From assembly GCA_913063225.1 (NCBI GenBank), contig CAJXYP010000002.1, positions 85,756 through 149,755 on the forward strand: DNA of 64,000 bases, given 5' to 3'. The position numbers and the translations under genes are program-made. This document shows, piece by piece, positions 41,657 through 51,401 of this stretch. The notes beneath the pieces are model-generated. The model saw only the letters and a list, made by a program, of their open reading frames with translations. It made no database searches and was not told the DNA's origin. Each line of letters begins with the position of its first letter. Position 1 is the stretch's first letter. This DNA is from an uncultured Cellvibrionales bacterium (GTDB lineage Bacteria; Pseudomonadota; Gammaproteobacteria; Pseudomonadales; GM7GCV1).

Positions 41657-42091
<435 letters not shown>

Positions 42092-42097
42092 CTAGGC

Positions 42098-43321
42098 CTA
42101 AGTTCCAGATGAAAACTCTGGGTAAGCTTCGATACCACATTCACTGATATCAACACCTTCGTACTCTTCTTCCTCAGTAACTCGAATGCCCATAGTGGCT
42201 TTCAGAGCTAACCAAACAACACTTGAAGCGCCAAAGACCCAAACAAAGATAGTTACCGCACCAATAAGTTGTCCAGAGAAAGTAGATGCATCGTTAGTGA
42301 TAGGCACAAGCATCAGGCCAAGAAAGCCTACAACACCGTGAACCGAGATAGCACCAACAGGATCATCAAGCTTCAATTTATCCAAAGCGAGAATACTGAA
42401 GACTACAAGCACACCACCTAATACACCCCAAACAGTGGCGATAAGTGCGGTGGGCGTTGAAGGCTCAGCCGTGATAGCTACCAAACCAGCTAGTGCGCCG
42501 TTAAGGGCCATAGTCAGATCAGCTTTACCGAACAATATACGAGCGGTAATAAGTGCAGCAACAAGACCACCTGCGGCAGCAGCGTTAGTATTCATAAATA
42601 CAACCGCTACAGCATTTGCGCTTTCAACACTGGCAGTCGCTAGAACCGAACCACCGTTAAAGCCAAACCAACCTAACCAAAGGATAAACATACCCAAGGT
42701 AGCTAAAGGCATGTTTGCGCCTGGGATAGCGTTTACAGAACCATCCGCGTTGTATTTGCCCTTGCGAGCGCCAAGGAAGATCACACCAGCTAGGGCTGCA
42801 GAAGCACCTGCCATATGAACAATACCGGAGCCAGCAAAATCGCTAAAGCCGAGATCACCTAGGGTATATAGACCAAATACGGCGTTGCCGCCCCAAGTCC
42901 AAGAACCTTCCATTGGGTAGATGAAACCAGTCATGACTACCGCAAAAATCAAGAAAGCCCAAAGCTTCATGCGCTCAGCAACCGCGCCCGAAACAATAGA
43001 CATAGCTGTGGCAACAAATACTACTTGGAAGAAGAAATCAGCCGATGGCGCATATGTCCAATCGTCAGCAACTCCGTCACCAGTAATACCGCTTAGGAAA
43101 AGGTCTCCGCCATACATAATCATGTAACCGCAAACCATGTACATTACACATGAGATTGCATATAGAGCGACGTTTTTAGTAAGAATTTCTGTAGTGTTCT
43201 TGGAACGAACCAAGCCAGCTTCCAACATGGCAAAACCAGCAGCCATCCACATAACAAGGGCACCACATACCAAGAAATAGAAGGTATCTAGTGCATAAGC
43301 GAGTTCAATTGCAGCATCCAT
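42098..43321 (-). CDS. amtB: Ammonium transporter AmtB
   Basis: Trimeric ammonium channel of the inner membrane, 407 aa with eleven hydrophobic segments. Family signatures are visible: FAMLEAGLVRSKNTTEILTK, DFAGSGIVHMAGASAALAGV (with the first pore His), and SVHGVVGFLGLMLVPI (second pore His). The C-terminal tail carries the GlnK contact region. It starts 12 bp after glnK copy 2 and is probably under the sigma-54 promoter at 44457-44472. Confidence 0.96.
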   Translation of the reverse strand: MDAAIELAYALDTFYFLVCGALVMWMAAGFAMLEAGLVRSKNTTEILTKNVALYAISCVMYMVCGYMIMYGGDLFLSGITGDGVADDWTYAPSADFFFQVVFVATAMSIVSGAVAERMKLWAFLIFAVVMTGFIYPMEGSWTWGGNAVFGLYTLGDLGFSDFAGSGIVHMAGASAALAGVIFLGARKGKYNADGSVNAIPGANMPLATLGMFILWLGWFGFNGGSVLATASVESANAVAVVFMNTNAAAAGGLVAALITARILFGKADLTMALNGALAGLVAITAEPSTPTALIATVWGVLGGVLVVFSILALDKLKLDDPVGAISVHGVVGFLGLMLVPITNDASTFSGQLIGAVTIFVWVFGASSVVWLALKATMGIRVTEEEEYEGVDISECGIEAYPEFSSGT

Positions 43322-43333
43322 TATTATCTCCAG

Positions 43334-43687
<354 letters not shown>

Positions 43688-43702
43688 TTAGCGGGATGAG
43701 TT

Positions 43703-43740
43703 GGAGGGTTTGGCAAACAACTAGGTATGCCTCACCCTCC
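43703..43740 (-). other. Hairpin in the torF-glnK intergenic region
   Basis: GGAGGGT (43703-43709) and ACCCTCC (43734-43740) form a 7-bp stem between the torF stop and the glnK start. No T-run follows on the minus strand, so it is more likely an mRNA-stabilising or partial attenuating structure than a full terminator. Confidence 0.5.
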
Positions 43741-43755
43741 GAATCTCGGCGGGTA

Positions 43756-44397: not shown

Positions 44398-44456
44398 GAA
44401 TTTCTCCTGAGTTTTAAATAAATGAGACTATTTATATCGTCTTCGGTTACTAACAA

Positions 44457-44472
44457 AGCAGATGTCGTGCCA
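44457..44472 (-). promoter_or_regulatory. Sigma-54 promoter for torF-glnK-amtB
   Basis: On the minus strand the sequence TGGCACGACATCTGCT has GG and GC separated by exactly 10 bases, matching the -24/-12 consensus (TGGCACG-N4-TTGCA) with one change in the -12 core. The predicted start site is near 44446, about 49 nt ahead of torF. Confidence 0.85.
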
Positions 44473-44559
44473 ATTTATCTATATTTCTTATATTTCATAT
44501 AGATATGAAATATTCATACGTCTTATTAGTTTTAATAGGGCGCTTTTCGATCGCTTATC

Positions 44560-44574
44560 GCACCATCTAAGTGC
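44560..44574. promoter_or_regulatory. NtrC-type binding site 1
   Basis: GCACCATCTAAGTGC, the GCAC-N7-GTGC dyad of NtrC sites. It is centred about 121 bp upstream of the predicted sigma-54 start, a normal enhancer distance. Confidence 0.75.
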
Positions 44575-44576
44575 AC

Positions 44577-44591
44577 GCACCAAATATGTGC
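44577..44591. promoter_or_regulatory. NtrC-type binding site 2
   Basis: GCACCAAATATGTGC, again GCAC-N7-GTGC, with an A/T centre closer to the NtrC consensus than site 1. It is 17 bp from site 1 centre-to-centre, allowing cooperative binding, and is centred about 138 bp upstream of the predicted start. Confidence 0.8.
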
Positions 44592-44721
44592 ACTTTTCTG
44601 GAGCTAGTAGGTAGGATCGGTATACAAGCGCCAAAAAATGAGCGCTGATGGAACATCCAACCCCCATAAATCAGGCTATACTTCGGCGTAAATCTGCCAT
44701 CAACTTTATGCCGACAAACCA

Positions 44722-44949
44722 ATGACAAAAGAATTCAAGTTAGACGATCTGCTGAAAGACCTTCCCCACCTAGCAGAATCCGCAAATGAAGAAATACGTA
44801 ACATTATTAAGGCCGCACTTGGACGAGTCATTCAGGATATGGATCTGGTATATCAAGAAGAAATTGATACCCTAAAACAAATGCTCTCCCGCACAGAAAC
44901 AAGGGTTACCGAACTCGAAAACAGCCTAGAAGAATTAGAAAGCAGCTAG
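44722..44949 (+). CDS. ubiK: Ubiquinone biosynthesis accessory factor UbiK (YqiC/BMFP)
   Basis: Small protein of 75 aa: an amphipathic N-terminal region ([19 protein letters not shown]-like) and a C-terminal coiled coil ([20 protein letters not shown]), the BMFP layout. It assists the cytoplasmic ubiquinone synthesis complex. It lies between the nitrogen cluster and comM, the same order as in Pseudomonas as I recall. Confidence 0.85.
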
Positions 44950-44986: not shown

Positions 44987-46030
44987 ATGCCAACCGCAAA
45001 TATACGAAGCTACACCATAGAAGGTGTCGCGGCTCGAGCCGTCGATATCGAAGTACATATATCCGCAGGCTTGCCCGCCTTCACTATAGTAGGCATGCCG
45101 GAAACTGCGGTTCGCGAAAGTCGCGAACGTGTGCGCTCGGCAATACTCAATTCAAATTTTGAATTCCCCTGCCGTCGCATTACCGTCAATCTAGCTCCAG
45201 CGGACTTGCCTAAACAAGGCGGAGGGTTCGATTTACCCATCGCCCTCGGCGTACTAATCGCCACCGAACAACTGCCACCAAATACCACAGAGCAAAGCTT
45301 TTGCGGAGAGCTCTCTCTTATGGGAAGGCTGCGCTCTGTAAAGGGCTTACTTCCCATTGCTTTGGCCAGTAGCCTCGATAAATTATCTCTTATATGCCCG
45401 GCAGAGAATTTGATGGATTTGCAGCTATTGCATAAGTCCGTCATATACCCAGCGGCGACTCTGTTGGACGTGTGTAGTCATATAAAGGAACTGGAAAAAA
45501 TACCAAGCCTACAGAGTGATCATTTTCGGCAAACTATCAAACAAAACGCCTCAACGACCATGCTTGATCTTTCGGATGTCTGCGGGCAGGCCATACCAAA
45601 AAGAGCGTTGGAAATTGCGGCTGCTGGTGGCCATAACATTCTCTTTAAGGGTCCTCCCGGTGCCGGCAAGTCTATGCTGGCAAAACGAATACTGGGCATC
45701 TTGCCCGAATTAACCGAGCAAGCAGCTATCGAGTCTGCTGTGGTCTATTCGATTTCCGGGAAAACTCGAGGGAACCTTTTTGTGCCTCCGGTGCGCGCAC
45801 CTCACCACACAGCTTCTTCGGCTTCCTTGGTCGGCGGTGGTTCACCCCCAAGCCCGGGTGAAGTATCCCTCGCCCACAGGGGGATACTGTTTTTAGACGA
45901 ACTACCGGAATTCGCGCCCAAGGTATTGGAAGCGCTCAGGGAACCACTCGAAAATGGTGAAATAGTTATATCGCGAGCGGCACAGCAGAACGAGTTTCCG
46001 GCAATCTTCCAGCAATATGCTTACTTATGA
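44987..46030 (+). pseudogene. comM: comM (YifB) 5' part, interrupted
   Basis: N-terminal two thirds of the Mg-chelatase-like AAA helicase ComM, which drives branch migration of incoming DNA in natural transformation. Native sequence runs to about codon 342: the Lon-like N-domain ([20 protein letters not shown]), Walker [16 protein letters not shown] and Walker [10 protein letters not shown]. It then breaks after FPAIFQ and runs into foreign sequence, stopping at 46030 with QYAYL. The rest of the gene continues at 47250. The left junction is the first copy of a 7-bp duplication (46007-46013). Confidence 0.93.
46007..46013. repeat. Left copy of 7-bp direct repeat flanking the comM insert
   Basis: TTCCAGC, identical to 47250-47256. 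Keeping one copy and removing everything between joins GCA ATC TTC CAG to CTA GTA GCG, restoring comM in frame. Confidence 0.85.
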
Positions 46031-46176
46031 TGAATAACATTCAGACCCATCTATATTTCAAAATCATAGGGATAATGCGGATTTACACGTAGGTAAGTGG
46101 TTCAGCACCTATGCCAGTTATCCAGAATAGTCGGGGTAGACTCGAGGATTTAAAACCCCCGTGTCTACTCTTAACG

Positions 46177-46638
46177 CTAGTGCAGATTCTTGTGCATTAC
46201 GTTGACCGGTACCCCGTTGTAGTCACAGCTCTCTAGCAATTGCCAACCCAGTTTTAAGTAAAGCGTTGTAGCTTTCTCGGTACACAAATACAGCTTACTA
46301 ATTCCGGATCGTCTAGCTTCTTCTTCCACTCTTTTAATAAGCTCAGATGCTATACCTTTCTCTCTATGCTCTTCCTTGACAAACACCCCAGCGAGCCATG
46401 GTGAAAGATCTTTTCTAGTGCTCATATCTTCAGATACAAGAAACGCTGAACCAAGTAAAACGTCATTATCGAGAGCTAAAAACCCTTGGGGAATACCGTC
46501 CGTATTAAGCAAAGCTCGTATCTTATTTCCACGCTCTATTTCAGACGTTTTCGGAGAAAAGTGCTTCCATTCCTCGTGATGCAACCGCGCAAGTTCAGGA
46601 ATGTGATTTTGGGAGGTATTGAGATCAGTAATATGCAT
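46177..46638 (-). CDS. GNAT N-acetyltransferase (insert gene 2)
   Basis: Acetyl-CoA-dependent acetyltransferase, 153 aa. The acetyl-CoA loop is visible in AGVFVKEEHREKGIASELIK (motif A, R/Q-x-x-G-x-A/G) followed by LYLCTEKATTLYLKLGWQLL (motif B, with the Tyr). The C-terminal beta-strand ends HKNLH. Substrate unknown. It lies 63 bp downstream of the other GNAT gene and both lie inside the comM insert, so they probably share a message. It does not resemble a named resistance enzyme closely enough to say more. Confidence 0.83.
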   Translation of the reverse strand: MHITDLNTSQNHIPELARLHHEEWKHFSPKTSEIERGNKIRALLNTDGIPQGFLALDNDVLLGSAFLVSEDMSTRKDLSPWLAGVFVKEEHREKGIASELIKRVEEEARRSGISKLYLCTEKATTLYLKLGWQLLESCDYNGVPVNVMHKNLH

Positions 46639-46701
46639 CTGCTTAATAATCCTCGCGTGGGTGGTTCGACTTAAAAAATTAAAGGGGGCAGAGGCTTTTT
46701 T

Positions 46702-47163
46702 CTAATCATCCTTCAGCAATTTCGAGAATAAAATACTTGGAGGAGGTTCTCCTCCGTCTACATCCGTGCCAGTAATCTGGAAGCCTTCCTGAATGTTTAA
46801 AATCAGCATCTCCGGAAACGAATTGCGGGAATTAGTTAAAATCTTTTCGTAGCCCTGTTCTTTGCACCATTGATGCTGTCTCCGTAGCAATTCCCGTGCA
46901 ATACCCTGCCTTCGGTATTCTGGTCGGACACAGCCCAACCAGCTAAAAAATGTACCTTGCCATCGTTCATATCCAAGCTTGAAGCCCACAACGTCGTCGG
47001 CGTTTTTAGCAAGCACCACCATAGGTTTGAATTTGGAGAGCACGCGCTCAGGAAAGTTCGGTTCTGGATATTGTTCACCAAAGGTCTCAGAAACAAGGCG
47101 AGCCATCTCCTCTATTGCTGAATCGGGAATATCCTTATTGTGAATTGCGAATGCGAATTCCAT
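46702..47163 (-). CDS. GNAT N-acetyltransferase (insert gene 1)
   Basis: Second acetyltransferase, also 153 aa but different in sequence. Motif A is WLGCVRPEYRRQGIARELLR, then a helix HQWCKEQGYEKILTNSRNSF and a C-terminal strand with MLILNIQEGFQITGTD. It lies first on the minus strand of the insert. The 40 bp upstream are short before the decamer repeats and the comM junction, so its promoter must lie in or beyond those repeats. Substrate unknown. Confidence 0.83.
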   Translation of the reverse strand: MEFAFAIHNKDIPDSAIEEMARLVSETFGEQYPEPNFPERVLSKFKPMVVLAKNADDVVGFKLGYERWQGTFFSWLGCVRPEYRRQGIARELLRRQHQWCKEQGYEKILTNSRNSFPEMLILNIQEGFQITGTDVDGGEPPPSILFSKLLKDD

Positions 47164-47190
47164 CTAATATTTATTTCTTATCTGTCCACG

Positions 47191-47220
47191 CATGAGAATA
47201 CATGAGAATGCATGAGAAGC
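47191..47220. repeat. Three tandem decamers at the right end of the comM insert
   Basis: CATGAGAATA, CATGAGAATG and CATGAGAAGC in a row (period 10, 8-9 of 10 bases shared). They lie 29-58 bp inside the right junction and 27 bp upstream of the insert's first gene. They could be recombinase or regulator binding sites, or simple slippage. Confidence 0.85.
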
Positions 47221-47249
47221 TATACCGAGACAGAAGCCCTCCTCCTCTG

Positions 47250-47732
47250 TTCCAGCTAGTAGCGGCAATGAACCCCTGCCCTTGCGGATATTATGGCAGC
47301 GTGAGATGCGACTGCAGCCCTGACAGGGTTGCGCGATATCAAAGAAGAGTGTCTGGCCCCCTACTCGATCGGATAGACATGCAGATCCAAGTAGAATTGC
47401 CCGAAAGAGCCGTATTGCTGCATAGAGGTGATCGAGGGGAAAGCAGTGCCAACATAAACATGCGAGTAATAGCCGCCCAAAAAGCCCAGCTATGCCGCCA
47501 AGGAAAAATGAACGCTCGTCTTAGTATTAACGAATTGGAAAAGTACGCGCCGATCCATGGCGCATCAGAACCACTGATCAACCTTGCTATGGATAAACTC
47601 GGCTTATCCGCCCGAGGCCTGCATAAGGTCTTGAGAGTAGCCCGCACCTTAGCGGATCTTGAAAGTAGTGTCTTCAGTACTGCACATATAAAGCAGGCTC
47701 TCGGCTATCGAGACCCAAGTTTCCTGAATTAG
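47250..47732 (+). pseudogene. comM: comM (YifB) 3' part
   Basis: C-terminal third of comM, beginning at the second repeat copy: FQLVAAMNPCPCGYYGSVRC (zinc/sensor region), then RVSGPLLDRIDMQIQVELP (arginine-finger area) and the C-terminal helices KVLRVARTLADLESSV. An in-frame GTG/ATG at 47202 would allow translation of a 176-residue fragment, but it lacks the ATPase core. Joined to the 5' piece after removing the insert the gene is 1503 bp (500 aa), close to E. coli YifB (506 aa). Confidence 0.92.
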
Positions 47733-49376: not shown

Positions 49377-51401
49377 ATGAATAACCCGACTTCTCAAGGA
49401 TTAAATTCCCAACAAATCGAAGCCGTCCAATATAACGACGGCCCGACGCTGGTGCTGGCTGGTGCTGGTAGCGGAAAGACCATGGTGATCACCAAAAAAA
49501 TCGCCTGGATGTTGGAGAAACTGCAATATTCACCTCGCCAAATTACTGCGGTCACCTTTACCAACAAAGCAGCTCGGGAAATGGATTCCCGGGTGCGCAA
49601 ACTGATTGGTAAAAAAGCCTGCCGTGGATTACGCATATGCACTTTTCATCGCCTCGGGCTGGACATTCTTAACGCTGATCTAACAACCGCCGGTTTTAGA
49701 AAAGGCTTTTCAATATTTGACTCCGAAGACGCCTTAAAGCTACTGGGAGATCTTGGCCTCAAAGATGTTGACTCTGACCAACTTGCTATAGGTCGTGATC
49801 TAATTTCCCAGTGGAAGAATCAGCTCATCGACCCCCCGCAGGCAATCTCAATTGCCGCCGATGACGCAGAATATCGGGCCGCCAAACTCTACGAACGCTA
49901 TCAAGAAGCTCTGAAGACTTATAACGCAATGGATTTTGACGACCTGATCTATCTGCCGGTCAAACTATTGCAGTCGGAACAAGAAATCCGAAATAAGTGG
50001 CAGTTGCGTATGCGCCATCTGCTTATAGATGAATACCAAGATACCAATCAGGCTCAATACGAATTGGTAAAAATTCTGGTTCAGCATCATATGAAATTCA
50101 CCGCAGTGGGTGATGATGACCAGTCGATTTACACTTGGCGTGGCGCACGCCCGGAAAACCTGATTGACCTGAGTCGTGATTACCCGAATTTGAAAGTAAT
50201 TAGGCTGGAGCAAAACTACCGATCTACCGAGCGTATTCTTAAGTGCGCGAATCAGGTAATCAAAAATAATTCTCACCTTTTTGAGAAAACCCTGTGGAGT
50301 AATCTTGGCTCCGGCGACCCCATAAATCTTGTTCGCCATAAAAATGAAGAAGTTGAGCTCGATTGGGTAGTACAGGATATTCAATACCGTATGGCGGTTA
50401 AGAGCGGTCGAAAGTTTAAAGACTTCGCGGTGCTTTATCGTGGCAATCATCAATCTCGCCTACTGGAAATGAAACTGCAGGGTCATGGCGTTCCATACAA
50501 TATCAGCGGCGGCACTTCTTTTTTTGGCCGCTCGGAAATCAAAGATGTAATGGCCTACCTTAGGCTGCTAATTAATCCAGAAGATGACGCTGCATTTTTG
50601 CGCATAATTAATACGCCGCGTCGGCAGATCGGCCCCAAAACTGTGGCGCAACTCTCGAACTATGTGAAAAATCGCGGTGGCAGTCTCCTGCAAGGCTGCA
50701 CAGAATTTGGCCTAACTGAGTCCGTAAGCGACCCGGGGCTATCCAGACTGCAATCCTTCGCGCACTGGATGGAAAAGAAAGCAATGCTCGCCGATACCAA
50801 AGACACCCTGAGCATCATTCGCGAACTACTGTCAGATGTCGACTATGAGAATTGGCTATTTGATTCGTCAAACTCACCAAAAAGCGCCGAAGCACGGTGG
50901 CGTAACGTTAATTACCTAATCGAATCCATCGGTAAAACCATTTCTTCCGAAGATGGAAATGAACAGAGTGAGACCCTCGCTGAGGCTGTGGCGCGAACAC
51001 AATTGCGAGATATGTTGGAAAACCTCGAAGAAGAATCTGCAGACGACAAGGTATCTTTGATGACCCTACATGCATCCAAGGGTTTGGAGTTTAAAGAAGT
51101 TTATTTGATAGGCCTCGAAGATGGCATATTGCCACACCAAAATAGCCTCGAAGAAGATAAGCTGGAAGAAGAGCGCAGACTCTTTTACGTTGGTATTACA
51201 AGAGCACAGGAGCGCCTTACACTAAGCTTGGCGGGAAGCCGCAAACAATTTGGTGAAGTCTCTGCCACAACCCCGAGCCGCTTTATTGAAGAACTTCCGG
51301 ACGAAGATTTAAACCGGGAAGGTTTCGCCGAAAAAAACCCAGAAAGAGCCGAGGCAAAAACCAAAGAAGCCCGCGCCAACCTTCAATCGTTATTCTCCTG
51401 A
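49377..51401 (+). CDS. rep: ATP-dependent DNA helicase Rep
   Basis: UvrD/Rep superfamily 1 helicase, 674 aa, the normal Rep size, that clears proteins ahead of replication forks. Motif I GAGSGKTMVITKKIAW, motif II LLIDEYQDTNQAQYEL, motif III AVGDDDQSIYTWRGA, motif IV region LEQNYRSTERIL, motif V LMTLHASKGLEFKEVYLIG and motif VI RRLFYVGITRAQERL are all present. Rep rather than UvrD by size and the short C-terminus. Separate from the sulfotransferase and followed by a terminator. Confidence 0.94.
   Translation: MNNPTSQGLNSQQIEAVQYNDGPTLVLAGAGSGKTMVITKKIAWMLEKLQYSPRQITAVTFTNKAAREMDSRVRKLIGKKACRGLRICTFHRLGLDILNADLTTAGFRKGFSIFDSEDALKLLGDLGLKDVDSDQLAIGRDLISQWKNQLIDPPQAISIAADDAEYRAAKLYERYQEALKTYNAMDFDDLIYLPVKLLQSEQEIRNKWQLRMRHLLIDEYQDTNQAQYELVKILVQHHMKFTAVGDDDQSIYTWRGARPENLIDLSRDYPNLKVIRLEQNYRSTERILKCANQVIKNNSHLFEKTLWSNLGSGDPINLVRHKNEEVELDWVVQDIQYRMAVKSGRKFKDFAVLYRGNHQSRLLEMKLQGHGVPYNISGGTSFFGRSEIKDVMAYLRLLINPEDDAAFLRIINTPRRQIGPKTVAQLSNYVKNRGGSLLQGCTEFGLTESVSDPGLSRLQSFAHWMEKKAMLADTKDTLSIIRELLSDVDYENWLFDSSNSPKSAEARWRNVNYLIESIGKTISSEDGNEQSETLAEAVARTQLRDMLENLEEESADDKVSLMTLHASKGLEFKEVYLIGLEDGILPHQNSLEEDKLEEERRLFYVGITRAQERLTLSLAGSRKQFGEVSATTPSRFIEELPDEDLNREGFAEKNPERAEAKTKEARANLQSLFS

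Follow-up and report, generated by a model that had tools for sequence, protein, structure and literature searches.

Within the window, that is, the whole 64,000-nucleotide stretch of DNA that was analysed, four genes on the minus strand follow one another in the order torF-glnK-amtB-glnK downstream of a sigma-54-type promoter and a group of NtrC-like dyads (Table 1). Both this gene order and the assignment of the first gene to the TorF (Gcw_chp) family had been proposed in a preliminary description of the stretch and were borne out. In the genome (2.26 Mb, 97% complete), only two genes for P-II proteins were found, both of them in this operon, and a separate glnB was not found. With both P-II genes located in a presumably NtrC-activated operon, the P-II protein that restrains NtrB under nitrogen excess must here come from basal expression.

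Table 1. Features of the torF-glnK-amtB-glnK locus (window coordinates).
Feature	Position	Strand	Basis
Putative outer-membrane porin gene torF, Gcw_chp/TorF family, 213 aa	43756..44397	-	PF09694 66.4 bits (cut-off 24); TIGR02001 75.2 bits (cut-off 47.15)
glnK 1 (P-II)	43334..43672	-	PF00543 and PRK10665 above cut-off
amtB, ammonium transporter, marine subtype	42098..43321	-	TIGR03644 647 bits
glnK 2 (P-II)	41657..41995	-	PF00543; start set at MKLITAV, upstream TTG at 42046 not used
Sigma-54 (-24/-12) promoter TGGCACG-ACAT-CTGCT	44457..44472	-	motif match; conserved in relatives
Predicted transcription start (+1)	44446	-	placed from GC at -12
NtrC-like dyad GCAC-N7-GTGC, centre about -121	44560..44574	.	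pattern match
NtrC-like dyad GCAC-N7-GTGC, centre about -138	44577..44591	.	pattern match
Weaker overlapping NtrC-like dyad, 8/10 positions	44589..44605	.	
Hairpin in the torF-glnK gap, without U-run/T-run in the window	43698..43747	-	fold; z = -4.2 at this locus

Judged by its sequence, the element ahead of torF (TGGCACGACATCTGCT, read on the minus strand from 44472 down to 44457) is a textbook Ntr-type sigma-54 promoter, a type already known, with GG at 44471-44470, GC at 44459-44458 and exactly ten nucleotides between them. Taking the C of GC as position -12 would place the transcription start at 44446, the lower end of the interval given in the preliminary description, with 49 nt between it and the torF ATG (44397). 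The pattern TGGCAYG-N4-YTGCW occurs once in the window, where 0.07 matches are expected from shuffled sequence, and pattern searches over the 2.26 Mb genome returned exactly four matches. Further upstream lie the two dyads GCACCAAATATGTGC (distal) and GCACCATCTAAGTGC (proximal), their centres 138 and 121 bp upstream of the predicted start and thus 17 bp apart, which amounts to an end-to-end arrangement; the third, weaker dyad overlaps the distal one. Promoter spacing, dyads and distances all agree with what the preliminary description had read from the sequence. The window holds four GCAC-N7-GTGC dyads where 0.81 are expected, and since pattern searches gave only 29 in the entire genome, it is very unlikely that chance brought two of them to within 140 bp of such a perfect -24/-12 element. 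NtrC sites were scored throughout by an E. coli-type consensus.

The GG/GC element, whose conservation ahead of torF had been put forward as a check of the proposed control, is indeed kept in relatives. The order-wide search covered 294 genomes, 155 of which hold torF relatives, and a named set of relatives was covered by a second scan (58 loci). For glnK-linked torF in the named set, GG-N10-GC is found in register in 25/25 cases at a score of at least 7 of 11 and in 21/25 at a score of at least 8, against about 2 predicted by dinucleotide shuffling and about 1 by site density elsewhere in the same loci; the sets share some genomes and contain related species, so that these counts are not independent events. 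Of 53 loci, 43 carry NtrC-like dyads between 40 and 200 bp upstream of the site, as compared to 2.6 expected upon base shuffling; the dyads lie mostly 105-150 bp upstream of +1 and often form pairs 30-33 bp apart. The 17-bp spacing of the window recurs in the two nearest relatives, while many others exhibit the wider one. Four promoters of the same family share TTTTGGCA...TGC and a GTGCA half-site, the remaining DNA having diverged.

Beyond the order, a sample of 397 Pseudomonadota genomes contained TorF/Gcw_chp in 207, about half of them, and no viral copies of torF were found. In a phylum-wide TIGR02001 sample the site precedes 15/19 torF genes adjoining glnK/amtB versus 10/50 others (Fisher P = 1e-5), and four of the 19 adjacent loci (L118, L138, L152, L170) are devoid of it. 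Within one family of the order (f21), several TorF genes likewise lack a sigma-54 site. Within the order sets, adjacency to nitrogen genes is not associated with the site, because unlinked torF genes there carry it as well. We conclude that not all TorF genes are so regulated, and that the predicted control follows nitrogen context, with the addition of solo genes in the wider neighbourhood of the window's genome.

The gap between torF and glnK, roughly 60-200 nt in length in linked loci of the order and of differing sequence from locus to locus, was searched in 71 linked loci and contained neither a second sigma-54 site (score of at least 8) nor a strong dyad. On these grounds we rejected the idea that glnK has a sigma-54 promoter of its own, and one promoter thus probably serves all genes of the operon. 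What the gap does contain is a hairpin, kept in 43/45 linked loci of the order (z below -2; mean z -4.2 against dinucleotide shuffles), with a run of at least four T near the stem-loop in 27/45. By partial termination or by protection of the upstream mRNA, the hairpin would keep the porin transcript above that of glnK-amtB, and it probably sets torF output above that of the downstream genes.

The lack of a second promoter in these gaps, together with the standing of glnK-amtB operons as classic targets of NtrC (PMC10274813, PMC8443478), could also be taken to mean that torF is a mere passenger located between the promoter and its true targets. If so, the promoter should be lost once torF is apart from glnK-amtB. 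However, 26/35 torF genes of the named set without glnK downstream keep an in-register site scoring at least 8 of 11 (about 1 to 2 expected), many of them with dyads, and some solo torF precede urtA or ureD in place of glnK. Such solo genes are found in Alloalcanivorax, Gilvimarinus, Thiothrix, a Moraxellaceae genome and others. We thus regard a passenger role as unlikely; since torF keeps the promoter away from glnK-amtB, TorF would rather be a sigma-54 target in its own right.

The company kept by unlinked torF genes points in the same functional direction. In three Thiothrix genomes torF adjoins urtA (569-575 bits), and a urtA-like gene lies beside it in a Thiotrichaceae genome and at a further locus (L072); ureD is the neighbour at five loci (L220, L077, L101 (PF01774), L055 and L210), and ureEFG at two (L205 and L222). 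The urtA- and ureEFG-linked genes have sigma-54 sites scoring 9 to 11, and the ureD-linked ones score mostly below 8, with no site at L055, L077 and L210. Read from these neighbours, the common theme is small nitrogen solutes. Because solo torF genes keep the promoter, and because several adjoin urea-uptake or urease genes, the functional clue is stronger than first argued. On a plasmid of Azoarcus sp. KH32C (L255:2531-4330), a TorF paralogue directly precedes the agmatinase gene speB and is found near genes for a choline dehydrogenase (betA) and a cytosine permease, a neighbourhood that makes an amine or guanidine role of the porin family possible.

The regulators on which the proposed control depends are encoded in the genome: rpoN is present (C2:69517, E 1.4e-66), as is a full-length NtrC (730 bits versus a curated cut-off of 559), with a sensor-kinase-like ORF adjoining ntrC. 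The promoter of ntrB, placed after glnA and a small ORF, shows the same dyad followed by a sigma-54-like site (L239:2965-3058, corresponding to G000:C23, 11964-12057), and constitutes the only other intergenic dyad/sigma-54 pair found genome-wide when exact dyads are paired with sigma-54 sites that deviate at no more than one position. A further pair at C4:120096-120287 was dropped as lying partly within a TonB-receptor ORF. For glnA no recognisable sigma-54 site was detected in this genome, so that the Ntr circuit may be rewired.

One might then ask whether some other enhancer-binding protein drives the promoter in place of NtrC, given that the genome encodes a second sigma-54 activator-like gene (C6:40952, 238 bits) and that the dyads are just 17 bp apart. 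We consider this improbable, more so than the passenger role: the dyads fit the NtrC consensus and recur in the 43 loci noted above, the same dyad precedes ntrB, and glnK-amtB is an NtrC target in both Herbaspirillum (PMC3023670) and Caulobacter (PMC10274813). That the resemblance to sigma-54 and NtrC sites is fortuitous can practically be dismissed, since single exact TGGCAYG-N4-YTGCW sites do arise in 7/100 shuffles of the window but dozens of diverged loci carry the pattern in register.

Hence, we consider it highly likely that torF-glnK-amtB-glnK is under NtrC/sigma-54 control, an assignment based on sequence comparison. At low nitrogen, phosphorylated NtrC would bind the tandem dyads, which lie some 120-140 bp upstream, and activate the sigma-54 RNA polymerase held at -24/-12, whereupon the operon would be transcribed; NtrC binding, start site, co-transcription and induction are the steps that we infer. 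TorF might then raise the permeability of the outer membrane for scarce small nitrogen solutes, that is, ammonium and, in other species, urea or amines, with AmtB and the P-II proteins acting at the inner membrane. The substrate and channel role of TorF is the least certain part of this scheme, and we offer it as a tentative proposal.

A signal peptide can be read from the TorF sequence, and the AlphaFold2 model (55 sequences; pLDDT 84.8) predicts a 12-strand barrel for which the best matches among solved structures are the 12-strand porins KdgM (Z 15.8; 2.4 A over 153 residues), VhGalP and NanC (Z 14.1). Although TorF thus shares the predicted fold of the KdgM/NanC porins, it is strongly acidic, has other neighbour genes, and shows no detectable sequence relation to them: a profile search of PDB sequences with TorF gave no match. 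The net charge of the mature protein is -29 over 191 residues, and that of relatives mostly between -18 and -30. Such a charge would suit a channel that favours cations, but acidity is common among marine proteins, and the charge, which may reflect such general acidity, is thus only a hint. Of the general porins, Porin_4 and OprD were the two families searched, and neither was found in the window's own genome.

When compared with the Ntr promoters of E. coli glnAp2 and glnK-amtB, the window likewise exhibits GG-N10-GC and, some 100-140 bp upstream, NtrC dyads in tandem, but differs in that a porin gene leads the operon and in that the dyads are 17 rather than about 32 bp apart, 32 bp being the spacing at E. 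coli glnA. The phosphate-starvation porins PhoE and OprP are outer-membrane channels induced by starvation for the very nutrient that they admit; our reading of TorF shares with them the starvation-induced channel, whereas fold size, regulator and nutrient differ. A porin of Burkholderia cenocepacia described as amine-transporting, BCAL3473, is reported to be upregulated under nitrogen limitation and has a sigma-54-like promoter of extended spacing, although reports conflict on the direction of the NtrC effect and expression is constitutive in rich media (PMC10117139).

The closest parallel is the nlmA-glnK-amtB operon (orf1glnKamtB) of Herbaspirillum seropedicae, which is NtrC-dependent and from which amtB::lacZ is expressed about 21-fold higher under nitrogen limitation (PMC3023670). 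NlmA was detected in membrane extracts under nitrogen limitation and placed 'most probably in the periplasm' (PMC3023670). As in the window, a membrane-associated gene of unassigned function precedes glnK and amtB behind an NtrC-type promoter; in contrast, amtB is followed in the window by another glnK, with no separate glnB found in its genome. Membership of NlmA in the TorF family is probable, given that sigma-54 sites also accompany torF-glnK-amtB loci outside the order of the window (L130, L131, L137, L155), including a lineage (L131) whose TorF matches Azoarcus and Cupriavidus proteins. Our finding is thus less new than the preliminary description implied, NtrC-dependent nlmA-glnK-amtB having been published for Herbaspirillum (PMC3023670). 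What was known already is NtrC control of such an operon; what is new is the probable link between nlmA and TorF, the solo torF genes with sigma-54 sites, the association with urea genes, and the hairpin. In the openly accessible literature searched, TorF/Gcw_chp (PF09694, TIGR02001) is not connected by name to nitrogen, and the main text of NtrC studies on Caulobacter and P. stutzeri makes no mention of TorF, a porin or the outer membrane. A Rhodobacter protein named 'TorF' was rejected as a member of the family, being an unrelated motility regulator.

The value of these observations lies in a clue at the level of the family, in that TorF recurs under predicted control of the nitrogen type and next to genes for ammonium and urea. 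Such conserved control leads to the hypothesis that TorF is a channel in the outer membrane, induced by starvation, which admits small nitrogen compounds, and the TorF link may explain the gene that opens the Herbaspirillum operon. For sea bacteria that live on very little nitrogen, the permeability of the outer membrane could matter. It is tempting to speculate, as a possibility somewhat short of an even chance, that in much of the Gammaproteobacteria in the broad sense TorF is the outer-membrane partner of nitrogen acquisition: a small, acidic channel that admits ammonium, urea or amines, induced by NtrC/sigma-54 and constituting the nitrogen counterpart of the phosphate-starvation porins, with the hairpin setting the porin above glnK-amtB.

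The surroundings of the operon deserve a brief description. Between the torF promoter and comM lies a small divergent ORF (44722-44949; 75 aa) that looks UbiK/BMFP-like by eye. The Mg-chelatase-like gene comM (region 44987-47732) is split into an N-terminal part (44987-46030) and a C-terminal part (47202-47732), and the ~1.2 kb between the halves hold two ORFs on the minus strand that appear by eye to encode GNAT-like acetyltransferases (46177-46638 and 46702-47163), with no visible transposase in the gap. The break point is the conserved FQLVAAMNPCPCG stretch, and comM is a known insertion hotspot. Solo torF genes (L057, L065, L066, L104) are often convergent with a rep-type helicase gene, and a similar helicase gene is located in the window at 49377-51401, 5 kb off beyond comM, which together suggests an old torF-comM-rep neighbourhood.
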